Source: an uncultured Opitutia bacterium (GTDB lineage: Bacteria > Verrucomicrobiota > Verrucomicrobiia > Opitutales > Opitutaceae). From it: DNA of 64,000 bases. The position numbers and the translations under genes were made by a program. How positions within the stretch are numbered: position 1 is the stretch's first letter; every line of letters begins with the position of its first letter. The notes beneath the pieces were generated by a model, which was not told the origin of the DNA, did no database searches, and saw only the letters and a program-made list of their open reading frames with translations. The stretch lies in NCBI GenBank assembly GCA_903881475.1, contig CAIRTK010000037.1, positions 1 to 64,000 of the forward strand, in the 5' to 3' direction. Shown in pieces: positions 406 to 60,054 of this stretch.

Positions 406-561
406 GTGGCAGCCGAGATCGCGAGGCTGGGTTTGGGTTGAATCGCCAAGACGCCAAGGCGCAAAGTTGGATCATAAAGATAAACGTAGAACTTGGCTTC
501 GACCTTCGCCGCCTCGCGTCTTTGCGATTATCAAACTCAGCCTCCTCACGTCGGCTGCTAC
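406..561. repeat. Nested intergenic inverted repeats (GTAGCAGCCG type around AATCGCCAAGACG type)
   Basis: The outer arms at 406-429 and 538-561 are imperfect inverse copies starting GTGGCAGCCGA and GTAGCAGCCGA and ending GAGGCTG. Inside them lies a second pair, 441-466 and 504-529, with the word CGCCAAGA repeated about every 8 nt. The outer type recurs at 10767 and 24239, the inner type at 20063. No gene is seen between 382 and 650; this element fills most of the gap. Confidence 0.8.
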
Positions 562-2423: not shown

Positions 2424-3326
2424 TCACGCCAGCTTGTCCCCGCAGGCCAGGCCGGGCCACTGCTGCGCGACGTACCGCTGCGATTCCTCCAGCAACGCGC
2501 GGATGCGCGGCGTGGGCTCGCCGTTCCAGAGCGCGGCGATCTCGACGGCCTCGAAATCATCGAGCGGCAGCACCCGCACCCGGGGATGCCGCACGACTTC
2601 CGCGGCATTCACGCTCAGCCCGATGCCGTAGCCGTTGGCGACGTAGCGCGTGACCAGGTCCATCGAACTCGCCTCGATGGACTGCGGCCAGTCCACCTGC
2701 CGTTGCTGCAGCCCCTTGCGGAATAGCCGGCTCATCGCCTCGGTGTGCGGCAGGCAGATGAGCGGCTCCTCGATCCCGCCGCGGGCCCAGAGGTCGGCCG
2801 CGGACTTAATCCGCGACTGCCGGGGCACCAGCAGCACCAGCGGCATGCGGAGCAACCGGAGACAGCGCAGCCGCGCCGGCGGCTTGGCGTCAAGCGGGGT
2901 AATCGCGACATCGATCTCACGGTCGAGGAGCCATTTTTCCATCTCGGGCTGAAAGCCCGAGCGCAGTCCCAGCCGCAGCTTCGGCTCATGCCGGCGCAGC
3001 CGTTCGACCACCGCCGGCAGATAATCCCGCAACACCAGCTCCGAGGCACCGATGCGCAGGAGCGGCGCGGACTGTTTGCGCAGCCGTGCCGCCATGGCAT
3101 CGAGGTTCTCAAAGAACGGCCGGATGAATTCGAAGAGCTGTTCACCCGTCGCGGTGAGCTTGAACGGGCTCCGCTCGAAGAGCTTCGCGCCCAGGTCCTG
3201 CTCCAGCAGGAGGATCTGGCTGCTGACCGCCGGCTGCTGGATGCCATACGGCATGCTGCGCACCGCGCGGCTGATCCCGCCATGCCGGGCGACGTAGTAG
3301 AACAGTTCCAAATGGTGGATGTTCAT
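2424..3326 (-). CDS. LysR-family transcriptional regulator
   Basis: 300 residues from the ATG at 3326, which places the winged helix-turn-helix at residues 4-62 (MNIHHLELFYYVARHGGISR, then QQPAVSSQILLLEQDLG), as is usual for LysR proteins. The rest is a periplasmic-binding-protein-like effector domain. A longer open frame to 3530 would add about 68 residues with no LysR similarity, so I reject it. It is divergent from the lplT-aas pair, and LysR proteins often control the divergent neighbour. The effector is not visible from sequence. Confidence 0.92.
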   Translation of the reverse strand: MNIHHLELFYYVARHGGISRAVRSMPYGIQQPAVSSQILLLEQDLGAKLFERSPFKLTATGEQLFEFIRPFFENLDAMAARLRKQSAPLLRIGASELVLRDYLPAVVERLRRHEPKLRLGLRSGFQPEMEKWLLDREIDVAITPLDAKPPARLRCLRLLRMPLVLLVPRQSRIKSAADLWARGGIEEPLICLPHTEAMSRLFRKGLQQRQVDWPQSIEASSMDLVTRYVANGYGIGLSVNAAEVVRHPRVRVLPLDDFEAVEIAALWNGEPTPRIRALLEESQRYVAQQWPGLACGDKLA

Positions 3327-8118: not shown

Positions 8119-8298
8119 TTTAACCACGGATTTCACGGATGACACGGATGGGGAATCCCAAACCATCGATCCTTTTTACAGGAGGCAACTGAGGAAACCC
8201 AGAGAGCCGATTCTCTCTGCTCCGTTCCCTCCGTTTCCTCCTCTAAAATGCCCGGGGATTGCTGCCCGGATCTCCGATCCGTGAAATCCGTGGTCAAA
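8119..8298. repeat. Nested intergenic inverted repeats (TTAACCACGGATTTC type around TTTTACAGGAGG type)
   Basis: The outer arms at 8119-8149 and 8270-8298 read TTTAACCACGGATTTCACGG and its near inverse. The left arm holds three CACGGAT words exactly 9 nt apart. Within the loop, 8173-8206 pairs with 8213-8249 (TTTTTACAGGAGG against TTTTAGAGGAGG, with AAC and GGAG words about every 9 nt). One family therefore sits inside another. It occupies most of the spacer between the epimerase and aminotransferase genes. Confidence 0.82.
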
Positions 8299-10766: not shown

Positions 10767-10967
10767 GTAGCAGCCGCCGTAAGGAGGCTGGTCCGGATCT
10801 CGGAAAGGCCGAACATCCAACCTTCAACGCTGAACCTCGAACGTCGAAGCCCCGAGCAGAGCCGGAAGACAGGGATGGAACTTCGACGTTGGACGTTCGA
10901 AGTTGAGCGTTCGATGTTCGCACAATCCGGCATCCGTCGGAGACAGCCTCGTCACCTCGGCTGCTAC
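10767..10967. repeat. Nested intergenic inverted repeats (GTAGCAGCCG type around GAACATCCAACC type)
   Basis: The outer arms at 10767-10790 and 10944-10967 (GTAGCAGCCG to GAGGCTG) match the outer element at 406-561. Inside, 10811-10849 pairs with 10881-10919; each arm begins GAACATC and ends ACGTCGAAG. An unpaired stretch of GGAGATCG-like words lies at 10730-10752. Together these explain nearly the whole 302-base gap before the next gene. Confidence 0.82.
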
Positions 10968-11496: not shown

Positions 11497-11973
11497 ATGC
11501 CCTTCCCGGAAATCACCCGCCTCTCGCCCAACTGCGACACCACGGTGCCCCACGAGCAGCTCGGCGTGGTCTTCCACCACAGCGTCATCCCGTTCGACGA
11601 GACCATCGCGCTGATGACCGATCCCGCGCGCAAGGTCAGCTATCATTGCCTGATCGCGCCCGACGGCACGCGCTGCACCCTCGTGCCCGACGACCACATC
11701 GCCTGGCACGCCGGCGTGTCCTCGTTCCAAGGCCGCGCCGGCTGCAACGCCTTTCTCCTCGGCCTGTCCTTCGCCGGCGACACCTACGCCGCGCCGCTGA
11801 CCGACGCCCAACTCGCCTCCGCCCTCGAATGGCTCGCCCCGCGCTGGATCCACCACGGTTGGGCCCTCGACCGCATGACCGACCACCGCCAAGTCGCCCC
11901 CGGCCGGAAAAACGACCTCAATCCCGTCGAGTGGGATCGCTTGGTGGCCACGCTCAAAGCAAAATTCAAATAA
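11497..11973 (+). CDS. N-acetylmuramoyl-L-alanine amidase, AmpD/amidase_2 type
   Basis: 158 residues from the ATG at 11497. The fold is amidase_2: the first zinc His is in VVFHHSVIP, the Tyr-His region in VSYHCLIAPDG, and the last ligands are in DHRQVAPGRKNDLNP. It should cleave the bond between MurNAc and L-alanine of the peptide stem. No signal peptide is seen, which points to cytoplasmic recycling of anhydro-muropeptides as in AmpD rather than hydrolysis of the sacculus. The open frame extends upstream to 11305 but only into repeat-like spacer DNA. Confidence 0.87.
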   Translation: MPFPEITRLSPNCDTTVPHEQLGVVFHHSVIPFDETIALMTDPARKVSYHCLIAPDGTRCTLVPDDHIAWHAGVSSFQGRAGCNAFLLGLSFAGDTYAAPLTDAQLASALEWLAPRWIHHGWALDRMTDHRQVAPGRKNDLNPVEWDRLVATLKAKFK

Positions 11974-11987
11974 TCATCCGGCCGGAC

Positions 11988-12066
11988 TTTACAGGAGGTA
12001 ACGGAGTCAACTGAGATTTGAGACGCTGGTCCCTGTTTTCTCCGCTCTCTCCGCTGCTTCCTGAAA
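11988..12066. repeat. Inverted repeat, TTTACAGGAGG type
   Basis: TTTACAGGAGGTAACGGAG at 11988 is mirrored by 12037-12066. The left arm repeats GGAGNNAAC with a 9-nt period. It lies exactly between two convergent genes, where a bidirectional terminator would be expected. Confidence 0.75.
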
Positions 12067-12078
12067 GAAACAGGCCGC

Positions 12079-12360
12079 TCAGGTATTGAACCGGCGGGTC
12101 TCCGACTTCGACGCCGGTTCGGCGAACGACTGCGCGAAAAACTCCTGCGCTGCGCCCATCAGCTTGGAATACTTGCCATAGTCCCCCGCCCAAGAATTCG
12201 GCAGGCAGATCCGCTTGATCACCCCTTTTCCGATCTTGTCCGGCGCCTCGCGGTCGGGCGCAAGTTCCAGCGAAAACCGCGGGTCGCTCGCATGCACCAC
12301 ATAGTGCCGCGAACCGCTCTGCTCCTCCCGCTCGATGCGCAGAAAATGGGCAAAACTCAT
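12079..12360 (-). CDS. Small conserved-looking protein of unknown function
   Basis: 93 residues from the ATG at 12360. It starts MSFAHFLRIEREEQSGSRHY and contains mixed strands followed by a helix with EFFAQSF. I do not recognise a named family. The alternating pattern with positive charges is loosely like small nucleic-acid-binding domains, which is only a guess. The longer open frame to 12654 crosses the start of the divergent gene and is rejected. Confidence 0.6.
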   Translation of the reverse strand: MSFAHFLRIEREEQSGSRHYVVHASDPRFSLELAPDREAPDKIGKGVIKRICLPNSWAGDYGKYSKLMGAAQEFFAQSFAEPASKSETRRFNT

Positions 12361-12484
12361 TGGCGGACCCCACGCATGACAGCCCGGAGCCCGAACGCGA
12401 AACAAAACCCGCCCCCTTCCCGCAATCCGTGATTGAAAAACCCCCGCCCGCGTCGCACACACTTTCCGCGCCCGCCGGCGCCCC

Positions 12485-14026
12485 ATGATGTCCTCCTCAT
12501 CGTCCCCGAAACTGCCCAAGTGGATTTTCTTCCTCACCGACGCGATCCTGCTCTTCACGGCGTGGTTCATCGCCAGCCGCAGCTCCGGTCCGTTGTCGTC
12601 CCACGCCATTTTCGCCATCACCGCCTGCGTCATCGTCGGCGCCATCCTCGGCACGATTCCCCTCCTGCTGCATTATGAGCGGGAGAAAAACGAGACTCTC
12701 GACGACCGCCAGCGCGCCCTCGAGGCGCTCGCCCTCACCCTCACCACCGCCGCCGACCAGATCAGCATCGCCGCGAAGGGTCTCCACGAGATCGCCGAGC
12801 TCACCCAGAAAAACCTGAAGCAGACCGAGCAGCTGCCACAGAAACTGCAGGACAAGGTCGCCGAGTTCCAGGCCCAGCTCGGCAGCGCCCGCGATGAGGA
12901 ACGCGACGAGATGAAGACCGAGCTCGCCGCCCTCCGCGCCGCCGAGAGCCAGCGCCTCGAGTCCACCGTCGAAAGGATCCAGAAAGCCGCCACCGAGCTG
13001 GCCAAGCTCGAGGCAACCACGCAAAAAACCCTCTCTACTGCGCAGGCCGCGCTCGCGAAAACGCCCGAAACCCTCGCGGCCGCCACGACGGCGGCCCTTG
13101 CTGAGATCGACGCCAAGCTCGCTGCCCGCACCGCCACCGCCCTCGCCAGCATCGCCGAGACGGCCGCCAAACTTCCGGCGGGCACTCCGTCCGCGGACGA
13201 TCCGGGTCCGCCCGGCGGCGTGGAACGGCGCAAAAACCCTGCCCGCCGGGCCGCCGACATCGGCCAGCACATCACGCCCATCGTGCCAGCGACGATCGCG
13301 CCTTTCGCCGGGCACATCGTCTCCACCGGCCCCGCCTCCGGCGAGTCCGTGGAGCAATCCAACCCGAAGCTCGCAACCTCAGGTACCGCCGAGGTCTGTG
13401 ACCACATCGCACCCATCGTTCCACCCACCTCCGCCCCCTTCGCCGGCCACATCATCTCGATCAGCCCGGCCCCCGCCGAACCCGCCCCGGTCACGCCACC
13501 GGCTGAACCGGTCATTGCTCCCGAGCCCCAGAGCGAACCACCCGCATCCACGGTGGCTTCCGAGCCTGTACCCTCTCCCGATGCTCCCGCCGTCACGGAC
13601 GAGGCCAAGCCCGCCAAAAAGCGCGCCCCCCGCAAACCCAAGCCGGTGGAAGGCGCGGAGACCGCGCTCGACCTCGGGATCGTCGAGCCCGCTGCCGCCC
13701 CGGCCGCAGCCGACGAGTTCAGCCAGGTCGCTCCCGACGAGGCCGCAGCGAAGGTTATTTCCTCCGACGGTTCGACCCGCCTGCTCGTCACCGCCTACAT
13801 CGGCATCGGCAATCGTCTGTTCGTTCGCGGCGAGGGTCCCGGCCTGAGCTGGGACAAAGGCGTCCCGCTCCAGTTTGTCTCGATCGGCAAATGGCGCTGG
13901 GAAAGCGCCGACGCCACCGCGCCGGTGAAATATAAGCTCTACAAGAACGACGAGACCGAGTGCACCAGCCTCGGCACCCAGTCAATCGATCCCGCCCACC
14001 AGCAGGAAGTCACGGCAACGTTCTAG
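12485..14026 (+). CDS. Membrane-anchored coiled-coil protein with an internal repeat and a C-terminal beta domain
   Basis: 513 residues. Two membrane helices (about 13-31 and 39-61) are followed by a long Ala/Glu/Lys coiled coil (about 65-235). A Pro/Ala-rich linker holds two copies of a motif, HITPIVPATIAPFAGHI near 261 and HIAPIVPPTSAPFAGHI near 306, 45 residues apart. A basic stretch (KPAKKRAPRKPKP) precedes a globular end of about 90 residues with RLFVRGEGPGLSWDKGVPL, which looks like a small beta-sandwich related to carbohydrate-binding modules. The function is unknown. The layout suggests an inner-membrane scaffold. Confidence 0.75.
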   Translation: MMSSSSSPKLPKWIFFLTDAILLFTAWFIASRSSGPLSSHAIFAITACVIVGAILGTIPLLLHYEREKNETLDDRQRALEALALTLTTAADQISIAAKGLHEIAELTQKNLKQTEQLPQKLQDKVAEFQAQLGSARDEERDEMKTELAALRAAESQRLESTVERIQKAATELAKLEATTQKTLSTAQAALAKTPETLAAATTAALAEIDAKLAARTATALASIAETAAKLPAGTPSADDPGPPGGVERRKNPARRAADIGQHITPIVPATIAPFAGHIVSTGPASGESVEQSNPKLATSGTAEVCDHIAPIVPPTSAPFAGHIISISPAPAEPAPVTPPAEPVIAPEPQSEPPASTVASEPVPSPDAPAVTDEAKPAKKRAPRKPKPVEGAETALDLGIVEPAAAPAAADEFSQVAPDEAAAKVISSDGSTRLLVTAYIGIGNRLFVRGEGPGLSWDKGVPLQFVSIGKWRWESADATAPVKYKLYKNDETECTSLGTQSIDPAHQQEVTATF

Positions 14027-14047
14027 GGTGTGACTTCACACCCGATT

Positions 14048-14136
14048 GTCATTCTGAACGAAGTGAAGAACCCAATTGGACATGATTGAAGTCTGCGGCG
14101 GAATCACACTGGATTCTGCGCTGCGCTCAGAATGAC
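14048..14136. repeat. Inverted repeat, GTCATTCTGAGCGCAGCG type
   Basis: GTCATTCTGAACGAAGTG at 14048 is mirrored by 14110-14136, which reads GTCATTCTGAGCGCAGCG on the other strand. A second copy is at 45131-45223. From memory, very similar words occur in many unrelated bacterial genomes; I could not check this. Confidence 0.78.
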
Positions 14137-14187
14137 AAACGTTGTGACAGTGGGTTAGAAGACACGCCCTACACTATTGGGCGAGAT

Positions 14188-17615: not shown

Positions 17616-17634
17616 GTTGCGCGCCGCGCGCAAC
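17616..17634. terminator. Hairpin after the XRE gene
   Basis: GTTGCGCGC at 17616-17624 pairs perfectly with GCGCGCAAC at 17626-17634 around a single C. It starts at the base after the stop codon. No T run follows. Confidence 0.5.
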
Positions 17635-17636
17635 GG

Positions 17637-17781
17637 AGTTCGCCGTTGGGAGATCGGAGATCGAAATTACCCCGGGCACCTATCCGGTACGCTGCGCGTC
17701 GCAGGCCGTGCCACGCGATGACCGGAGCGCAACGCACCCGGCCAAACCGAACTCCGATCCTCGAATTGCGATCGCCGAACT
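17637..17781. repeat. Imperfect inverted repeat, GGAGATCG type
   Basis: 17637-17668 (AGTTCGCCGTTGGGAGATCG) and 17750-17781 are imperfect inverse copies rich in GATCG words. Similar words without a partner occur near 10730 and 45088. It fills the gap between the XRE gene and the convergent DUF255 gene. Confidence 0.55.
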
Positions 17782-17784
17782 GCG

Positions 17785-24234: not shown

Positions 24235-24238
24235 AGAC

Positions 24239-24313
24239 CGGTAGCAGCCGACGTCTGGAGGCTGAGAGCGATCGTCCGTGCCATGTCGGACGCCTTGTGT
24301 CGGCGGCTACCGG
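24239..24313. repeat. Inverted repeat, GTAGCAGCCGACG type
   Basis: CGGTAGCAGCCGACG at 24239 is mirrored by GTCGGCGGCTACCGG at 24299-24313. It starts five bases after the ABC-F stop, between convergent genes. It belongs to the family at 406 and 10767 but has a short loop without an inner repeat. Confidence 0.75.
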
Positions 24314-24341
24314 CCATCGCGTGATTCCGTCCTTCCGCGAT

Positions 24342-40756: not shown

Positions 40757-40799
40757 GGATGGCGAGGAGATGGAACGCATTGCCTCCAATGCCCTAATT

Positions 40800-40950
40800 G
40801 TAGGGCGGGGTCGCTGACCCCGCCAAACCGCTGCAAACCTTCCCGCGAATTTTACTGATCGACACGTATACTTCAGGTCATCCGCGCATATCTGCGTAAT
40901 CCGCGGAAATGTATCCTCGGGATCCGGCGGGATCAGCGATCCCGCCCTAC
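40800..40950. repeat. Nested repeats, GTAGGGCGGGGTC type around a TTCCGCGGATTACG type
   Basis: The outer arms GTAGGGCGGGGTCGCTGACC at 40800 and its counterpart 40926-40950 are themselves palindromic. Between them 40840-40865 pairs weakly with 40876-40908 (TTCCCGCGAATTTTAC against TTCCGCGGATTACG). It fills the gap between the RNA methyltransferase and LapA genes. Confidence 0.75.
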
Positions 40951-40971
40951 ATCAATCCGCCGCAGTCAGCC

Positions 40972-59955: not shown

Positions 59956-60054
59956 GGCGGGGTCGTTGACCCCGCCGGTTTGAAAGGTAGGGCGAATCCT
60001 CCGGATGAGCCGCGCTCAGTCTGCACCCGGCTCATCCGGAGGATTCGCCCTACC
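59956..60054. repeat. Palindrome GGCGGGGTCGTTGACCCCGCC and perfect 26-bp inverted repeat
   Basis: A 9-bp palindrome occupies 59956-59976. After it, 59986-60011 and 60029-60054 are perfect 26-base inverse copies starting GGTAGGGCGAATCC. This is the least diverged copy in the window. The outer edges match those at 40800 and 36727. Confidence 0.9.

Follow-up and report, generated by a model that had tools for sequence, protein, structure and literature searches.

Palindromic Elements Nested in the Loops of REPINs and Other Palindromes and Probably Copied as Units in an Uncultured Opitutaceae Bacterium and a Sister Species

Introduction

GTAG-tagged REPs are on record for Opitutus terrae (the "O. 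terrae" of the source is taken to be this species) and RAYT associations of REPs have been described in the same work (PMC3733652). Hundreds of structures that combine degenerate GTAG-1 units with adjoining, unrelated stem-loops are reported from Pseudomonas putida and P. fluorescens (PMC3733652), and in A. variabilis (GTAG-15), T. roseum (GTAG-23), and H. neapolitanus (CGTC-1) a REP dimer lies in the middle of a palindrome and the pair recurs (PMC3733652). Elements of this kind also enter one another: REPIN clusters in Pseudomonas were formed by insertion into or beside REPINs (PMC3116915), pneumococcal BOX, RUP, and SPRITE repeats insert into one another (PMC3049150), and insertion sequences such as IS621, ISPpu9, and others enter REPs (PMC1525189). 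The transposase TnpA-REP acts on single-stranded REP (PMC8266576).

Here, a window of 64,000 nt (the whole stretch of DNA that was analysed) was studied together with the genome it belongs to and that of a sister species (G008). The outer repeat of two nests in the window, REP1, resembles the known REPIN or GTAG REP with its RAYT (the REPtron) in its 24-nt hairpin with a GTAG foot, its head-to-head pairs with loops of 15–28 nt, its approximately 100–160 copies, and a REP-flanked RAYT-like gene in the sister species; it differs in that the loop of a minority of pairs holds an entire second palindrome and that these filled pairs recur as such. REP1 is likened to the GTAG REPs of O. terrae by description only (PMC3733652). 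The GTAG-1 structures of Pseudomonas provide a precedent for a REP and another palindrome multiplying together, but by the description in that source the units adjoin, whereas here the palindrome lies in the loop between two REPs. The GTAG-15, GTAG-23, and CGTC-1 dimers within palindromes, as far as the source describes them, are matched by two combinations found here (H>REP1 and P>REP1, outer family first). Unlike these, the REPINs studied here take both positions, have several partners, and can be compared at orthologous sites, which helps to separate outer-only from composite states. The pneumococcal repeats and Pseudomonas REPIN clusters involve other families and are not known to include nested units that multiply as units. 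REP-targeting insertion sequences such as IS621 and ISPpu9 share the entry of a mobile element into a REP; they break the REP itself, whereas here short palindromes without genes lie between two REPs. Among the matches listed in a literature search of partial coverage, no title or abstract opening reported nested REPINs multiplying as units.

The two sister genomes line up outer-only, nested, and copied nested states, with a REP-flanked RAYT-like gene present in one and missing at the orthologous place in the other. They bear on the choice of targets and the emergence of new forms among REPINs and other tiny non-coding elements, and they open both the targeting of loops by single-strand transposases and the origin of composite mobile elements to experimental tests.

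Results and Discussion

Nested Palindromes within the Window

A sequence-only reading of the window had described repeat families nested one inside another at four sites. The nestings are present at all four and arms were located at each (table 1). The remark that the outer family at 406–561 also encloses a different inner family at 10767–10967 was confirmed, with REP1 enclosing family A at the first site (REP1>A) and family K at the second (REP1>K). The fourth nest (40800–40950) had been called weaker, which is true of its inner element but not of its outer arms, which are 92% complementary. A fifth, weaker nest was found around family N; it is nested in the sister species too, its outer arms being identified by scan in the sister and by alignment only in the window. 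The family letters are labels of this analysis and not published names.

Table 1. Positions of nested palindromes and of a single REP1 in the window
Feature	Position	Strand	Evidence
Site 1, outer left REP1 (GTGG-footed copy)	406..429	+	Site 1 arms 406-429/538-561
Site 1, inner palindrome, family A (CGCCAAGACGCCAAG...)	441..529, ends approximate	.	Whole composite aligns to sister C48
Site 1, outer right REP1 (GTAGCAGCCGACGTGAGGAGGCTG)	538..561	-	REP1 pattern match
Site 2, outer left REP1	10767..10790	+	REP1 pattern match
Site 2, inner palindrome, family K (ACGTTGGACGTTCGAAGTTG)	10810..10920; arms 10810-10849/10881-10920	.	Inverted-repeat scan, folding
Site 2, outer right REP1	10944..10967	-	REP1 pattern match
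Site 3, outer left arm, family D (TTTAACCACGGATTTCACGGAT)	8119..8140	+	Inverted-repeat scan
Site 3, inner palindrome, family E (TTTTACAGGAGGCAACTGAGG)	8174..8248; arms 8174-8198/8224-8248	.	Inverted-repeat scan, folding
Site 3, outer right arm, family D	8277..8298	-	Inverted-repeat scan
Site 4, outer left arm, family F, GTAG-tagged REP (GTAGGGCGGGGTCGCTGACCCCGCC)	40799..40824	+	
Site 4, inner palindrome, family G (CCGCGAATT...AATCCGCGG), weak	40840..40909, ends approximate	.	Composite aligns to sister C65:73495-73649
Site 4, outer right arm, family F	40926..40951	-	
Fifth, weaker nest: TAGGGTGTGACTTCACACCC ... GGGTTAGAAGACACGCCCTA around family N	about 14024..14171; N arms 14043-14074/14110-14141	.	
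REP1 with decayed partner, not nested	24241..24264	+	

Inverted repeats are more numerous in the spacers than in shuffled sequence. A total of 18 repeats with a score of at least 12 were found in the 37 non-coding spacers of the window, compared with a mean of 0.5 in dinucleotide shuffles, and two nested pairs (sites 2 and 3) compared with none in 20 such shuffles. Sites 1 and 4 fall outside this strict cut because at least one of the two repeats of each scores below 12. The 52 spacers of the sister contig C65 contained 35 inverted repeats (0.7 in shuffles) and five nested pairs (none in shuffles). Every composite in the window folds into one long hairpin (z = -5.2, -4.7, -6.5, and -5.8 for sites 1–4). 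The nests sit in short spacers between predicted genes, and 7,097 of the 64,000 bases (~11%) are non-coding according to rough gene calls that were made with a simple GC-frame score and not with a gene finder. A known structured RNA was rejected as an identity of these elements, as no Rfam covariance model matched within the window at gathering scores, and a tRNA-linked element was rejected because no tRNA was found in the window. The closest named records for one protein encoded in the window belong to Lacunisphaera, Opitutus, and Opitutia MAGs (81–83% identity over the best segment).

REP1 Forms REPINs with Empty and Filled Loops

The motif GTAGCAGCCG forms the foot of REP1, as we name a GTAG-tagged REP of 24 nt that occurs as GTAGCAGCCGACGTNAGGAGGCTG or as the subtype AGGTNACG. 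Its many copies share the features of this class of REPs, a GTAG (or GTGG) tag and a CAGCC...GGCTG hairpin. On its own, the 10-mer GTAGCAGCCG shows no enrichment in the genome of the window (74 matches, compared with 87 for its reversal); the pattern of 24 nt, GTAGCAGCCGNNGTNANGAGGCTG, at three mismatches or fewer was found 99 times in this genome and 158 times in G008, and the reversed pattern once in each.

REP1 pairs were surveyed at nearly all of the places listed, which comprise 50 of the 99 matches in the genome of the window and 100 of the 158 in G008. Among these places, 66 rows of head-to-head REP1 pairs and 68 single REP1s were identified. The loop between the paired REP1s is 15–28 nt long in 49 of the 66 rows and 93–207 nt long in 12, and the rest are artefacts or doubtful: two rows of length zero are artefacts of the fuzzy search, one of which hid the pair at 10767–10967 that was recovered from the pattern matches, and rows with loops of 38 and 41 nt look like mis-registered partners. 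The 49 short-loop rows, a few of which rest on a weak partner (up to six mismatches) and some of which are mutual orthologs, display the inverted REPs at a fixed short distance that characterize REPINs. The loop lengths thus form two classes: the empty REPIN is approximately 70 bp long, and the two REP1 pairs of the window, both of which fall in predicted spacers according to the rough gene calls, are filled REPINs.

Filled REPINs, with a second palindrome in the loop of 93–207 nt, occupy nine loci among the places listed when orthologs are merged. They contain four inner families, A (CGCAAAG), K (ACGTTGGACGTTCG), M (TTGGCCACAAAAAGGC), and F, the last of which is a GTAG REPIN itself. Two further candidates were left out of the nine, L190 (one of the 12 long-loop rows, with five mismatches in the partner) and L204 (six mismatches and a loop of 343 nt). 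At least 10 of the 68 single REP1 rows adjoin part of an A or K composite, indicating that some of the single REP1s are remnants of composites.

An inverted-repeat scan of the fetched DNA added the outer>inner pairs D>E, F>G, F>D, H>REP1, H>D, P>REP1, P>M, A>M, and G>Q, and an unnamed outer element around H. Low-scoring nests that resembled chance or coding sequence (L074 2117, L177, L211, and the outer element of L161 1381) were not counted. REPINs are thereby found as outer and as inner elements, family M in the loops of three outer families (REP1, A, and P), and REP1 in the loops of two (H and P). Four of the families (REP1, K, M, and H) were found outside nests too. Short motifs of seven families matched once in 24 named loci of relatives, where the reversed strings matched zero times, and a synteny search of 14 of these 24 loci found that none of the six examined covers the three tested window sites. 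Among congener loci at the REP1>A and REP1>M sites, which were anchored by one flank only, 15 of 20 (8/10 and 7/10, respectively) contained no inverted repeat at the score used.

Composites Recur as Units at Non-orthologous Loci

The explanation favored here, to which a probability of roughly two in three is assigned, is that an element occasionally enters the loop of another, the outer element being a REPIN, and that the composite is then copied and inherited as one unit. As part of this same reading, site 406–561 would be a copy of a REP1>A composite, 10767–10967 of REP1>K, 8119–8298 of D>E, and 40799–40951 of F>G. The main evidence comes from composites at unrelated positions. The REP1>A composite at 406–561 aligns over 156 of 156 nt, in inverted orientation, with a composite on the sister contig C48 (E = 2.8e-29), and overall six combinations (REP1>A, REP1>K, REP1>M, D>E, F>G, and A>M) recur from end to end at non-orthologous loci, the copies ending at the outer arms. 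Ten non-orthologous composite pairs are 69–85% identical (z = 17–26) with a similar order and length, and their 40-nt flanks display z values between -1.2 and 3.2. As 7 of the 20 flanks reach z ≥ 2.0, some of these composites (D>E, F>G, A>M, and one M pair) may be slightly alike past their outer arms.

Conserved families alone would produce part of the composite score and the stretches between outer and inner arms therefore carry more weight. Compared with the loops of empty REPINs (median z = 1.75, 90% point 3.5, 99% point 4.85), between-arm sequence is common to two of three K pairs (z = 4.8, which falls short of the 99% point, and 7.0), to two of three D>E pairs (z = 7.0 and 5.4), and to one of three M pairs (z = 8.4). 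The values of the remaining K pair (2.7), the remaining D>E pair (3.4), and F>G (3.9) do not leave the range of empty loops, and no sharing was found in the other two M pairs and in A (z = 0.8–1.2, the borders of A being set by hand). Taken as a comparison of sequences, these data suggest that most of the recurring nests arose when a composite, nested beforehand, was copied. The sequence-only reading, which had considered mobility by insertion, is supported on mobility and had missed the copying.

A different account would treat every nest as an independent insertion, with inner families that seek hairpin loops and a recurrence that reflects target preference. Family M in the loops of REP1, A, and P, and REP1 in those of H and P, are as expected under this account, as are the outer-only ortholog of H>REP1 described below and one M-in-REP1 locus whose between-arm stretches are unlike those of the other two. 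Against independent insertion, six combinations recur end to end, several of them share the between-arm stretch, and of the 17 sites that could be tested, 8 hold the nest in both species whereas at 7 it is absent or replaced. The end-to-end copies at non-orthologous loci led to its rejection as the main account and it is considered unlikely.

Nested Sites in the Sister Species

Between the genome of the window and G008, 17 nested sites have a readable ortholog. Not included in this number are W8119, which has no ortholog, and L156, L161, L071, L158, L160, L210, and the A>M copy in L220. Eight of the 17 sites are nested in both species (window 10767, window 14024, C65:18478, C1/C39, C48/C55, L182/L222, L165/L228, and, in part, L088/L225), seven are absent or replaced (window 40800, C65:15394, C65:73495, C65:79242, and the C51, C62, and C3 sites of the sister), one is truncated, and one is outer-only. 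Among the sites nested in both, the sister is without 21 nt of one inner arm at 10767, and in L225 an M element takes the place of the expected left D arm. At C51 and C62 the genome of the window carries a short stretch that is possibly a decayed left REP1. The truncated site is 406–561, of which the sister retains the left REP1 together with the initial bases of the inner repeat; the rest is gone. Site 8119–8298 has no ortholog in the sister as the stretch is missing from the syntenic contig. Four blocks of the window are missing from this contig (2392–7016, 7250–10461, 26386–27961, and 52961–60875).

The outer-only site is H>REP1. The H element of the sister holds a REPIN of 68 nt and the orthologous place on the contig of the window contains an H element of 133 nt without a REPIN. 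The right halves of the two H elements are clearly orthologous (score 54, null maximum 33) and the left halves are not significantly similar (23, null maximum 25). The difference supports, in this one instance, the insertion of a REPIN into a loop; as the left half is not significantly similar, the site may alternatively have been replaced. No target site duplication, a mark of classic DDE-type MITEs, was noticed by eye at this site or at the A>M absence site, neither of which is clean.

According to the sequence-only reading, an empty outer element in a relative would reveal insertion, and its boundary any target duplication, whereas inner and outer parts that always occur together would point to one composite element. 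The comparison provides something of each: an empty outer element was found at 1 of the 17 sites, with only the right half clearly orthologous and a target duplication not established, and inner and outer parts occur together at 8 of the 17 and are missing together at 7 more. The locus pair L082/L142 may represent a second case of an empty and a filled element, with an empty REPIN in the genome of the window, whereas the sister carries an F REPIN and half an A element after a decayed left arm; it was not counted because the right arm is gone.

Window positions 24235–24341, 17616–17784, 11893–12484, and 40757–40971 have different palindromic families from sister contig C65 between conserved genes. 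Orthologous spacers often differ in their palindromic family, as if exchanging one element for another.

Insertions in Loops and in Arms

A scan of 457 kb for half REP1s resulted in 195 full and 31 half matches. Inspection of the 31 halves by eye identified no convincing REP1 arm that is interrupted by a palindrome: seven had a candidate other half in range, of which four belonged to intact REP1s and three were chance-like. This result agrees with insertion into loops, the number of independent events being approximately four or five and decayed cases being expected to escape the scan. If REP1>A, REP1>K, REP1>M, and REP1>F are counted as separate events, four loop insertions and no arm insertion have a chance of ~0.01 under uniform insertion (a loop of 22 out of 70 nt), an estimate from which old arm insertions could be missing if they decayed past recognition. 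At L196/L146 both species have a missing or decayed arm, and different elements lie beside the other arm. Some loci have thus lost an arm, or had it replaced, next to another element, which indicates that loops are not the sole places affected. The preference for hairpin loops that had been proposed from the sequence is thus suggested rather than proven: one outer-only locus and the lack of an interrupted arm among the 31 halves favor it, and the small number of independent events and the arms lost at L196/L146 and L225 weigh against it.

The nests could also be passive, if small elements survive in spacers only, pile up there, and are recognized as nests when the outer arms happen to be intact. 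Spacers make up ~11% of the window, orthologous spacers often contain different elements, and at some loci one arm is gone and the other adjoins a different element, all of which would fit such a process. However, the arms represent two thirds of a REPIN and no convincing interrupted REP1 arm was found among the 31 halves, and a pile-up leaves the copied composites unexplained, making a passive origin very unlikely.

A stepwise growth of cruciforms had been named in the sequence-only reading as the alternative to mobility. In this case, template switching during replication would copy arm onto arm and add layers without any transposition; template switching is reported to create hairpins (PMC8794818) and the composites are long hairpins. 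Copying should keep the arms alike, and the variable base of REP1 agrees between the two arms in 29 out of 61 pairs compared with 26.3 expected (p = 0.27), indicating that the arms are generally not kept alike in this way. The same change in both arms was found in 2 of 13 ortholog comparisons (L070/L091, G to C; L084/L157, A and G), as growth by copying would predict, but REP1, K, M, and H also exist outside nests. Arm-to-arm copying was rejected as the main account based on the arm bases, and cruciform growth is regarded as the least probable of the alternatives.

A RAYT-like Gene Flanked by REP1 in the Sister Species

Matches to NF047646 (RAYT family) were found at 29 loci in 10 of the 12 genus genomes searched. 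A single one of the 29 loci contains REP1 (up to five mismatches) within the fetched stretch. At this locus, on contig C33 of G008, a REP1 pair lies on each side of the RAYT-like gene, which is the REP-flanked RAYT arrangement of REPIN systems. The encoded protein of 191 aa matches NF047646 with E = 9e-12 and 45 bits (cut-off 80 bits) and has no Pfam match; among solved structures, TnpA-REP (4er8, E = 0.017) is the one relative with E ≤ 0.1. An HxH and a Y are conserved in all four of the aligned RAYT-like proteins, which we take to be the HUH motif and the catalytic tyrosine of the TnpA-REP superfamily. The congener G011 encodes a RAYT that is 52% identical to the C33 protein and has a different GTAG repeat, GTAGCCACGAGCGTGAGCGAGTGG, on both sides. 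Each RAYT thus has a GTAG repeat of its own beside it, REP1 in G008 and GTAGCCACGAGCGTGAGCGAGTGG in G011, as expected for a matched transposase and REP.

The genome of the window contains other palindromes and no RAYT at the place orthologous to C33, and none of its four NF047646 matches has a REP1 within the fetched locus. The absence of the RAYT at this place makes current mobility in this genome doubtful, and REP1 may still be mobile in the sister and decaying in the genome of the window. Mobility itself, as considered in the sequence-only reading, is supported by the REPIN family, by the REP1-flanked RAYT-like gene of the sister, and by whole composites that are present in one ortholog and absent or replaced in the other. 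The place of the sister's RAYT is occupied in the genome of the window (L258 4230–4448, G000:C3) by a CACGGAGAGCACGGAG palindrome and an apparent half A element.

Two Y1 genes in the genome of the window (contigs C11 and C25) were rejected as partners of REP1 because other inverted repeats bound each of them. The C11 gene (L087 2481–3062, G000:C11) is a second RAYT gene with 90 bits, above the family cut-off, and at its ends are inverted copies of another REP family, GTGGGCGGGGTGCCCTCACCCCGC (~2573–2596 and 3065–3088). The first of these copies falls inside the longest open frame and similar repeats are found elsewhere on the sister contig. The C25 gene (L086 2838–3890, G000:C25) encodes a Y1 protein of 328 aa and is bounded by inverted repeats (GATGGGGTCAGCCCCTAACTTTTGTGG); together they look like an autonomous element of another kind.

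A Possible Route to Composite Elements

Under the favored reading of insertion followed by copying, the REP1 REPIN would be a non-autonomous element that is moved via single-stranded DNA by a RAYT (TnpA-REP) HUH/Y1 transposase, and families A, D, E, F, G, H, K, M, N, and P would be further small palindromic elements of these spacers. Now and then one element would join into the loop of another, as the single orthologous outer-only case suggests, the loop presumably being the landing site because it is the single-stranded part of a folded or extruded hairpin. Because the outer arms remain recognizable, the nested composite would keep working ends, continue to move, and be copied and inherited as a longer unit. 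The mover is probably an ordinary REP-type transposase; we infer that the RAYT moves the composites and that families without a GTAG tag move similarly. A much broader proposal, that single-strand (HUH/Y1) transposition generally lands in the loops of extruded hairpins, so that unrelated palindromic families, with or without a GTAG tag, nest there and growing composites multiply as new mobile units, is tentative and rather doubtful. If true, landing in loops would act as a ratchet that makes new elements out of old ones.

Two further observations concern related elements. In the spacer of a congener that is orthologous to the REP1>M site (L096, G007), a palindrome of CAAACGCCAAACGG words encloses an H element, and in the same spacer of another (L095, G003) there are empty REPINs of a REP1-like family (GTAGCAGCCGCCGTCAGGCGGCTG); the two represent a possible further comparison of an empty and a filled state. 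Within the window, a palindrome at 59986–60054 with arms of 34 nt that are 91% complementary and 1 nt apart (GGTAGGGCGAATCCTCCGGATGAGCC...) is a tight GTAG REPIN of a further family.
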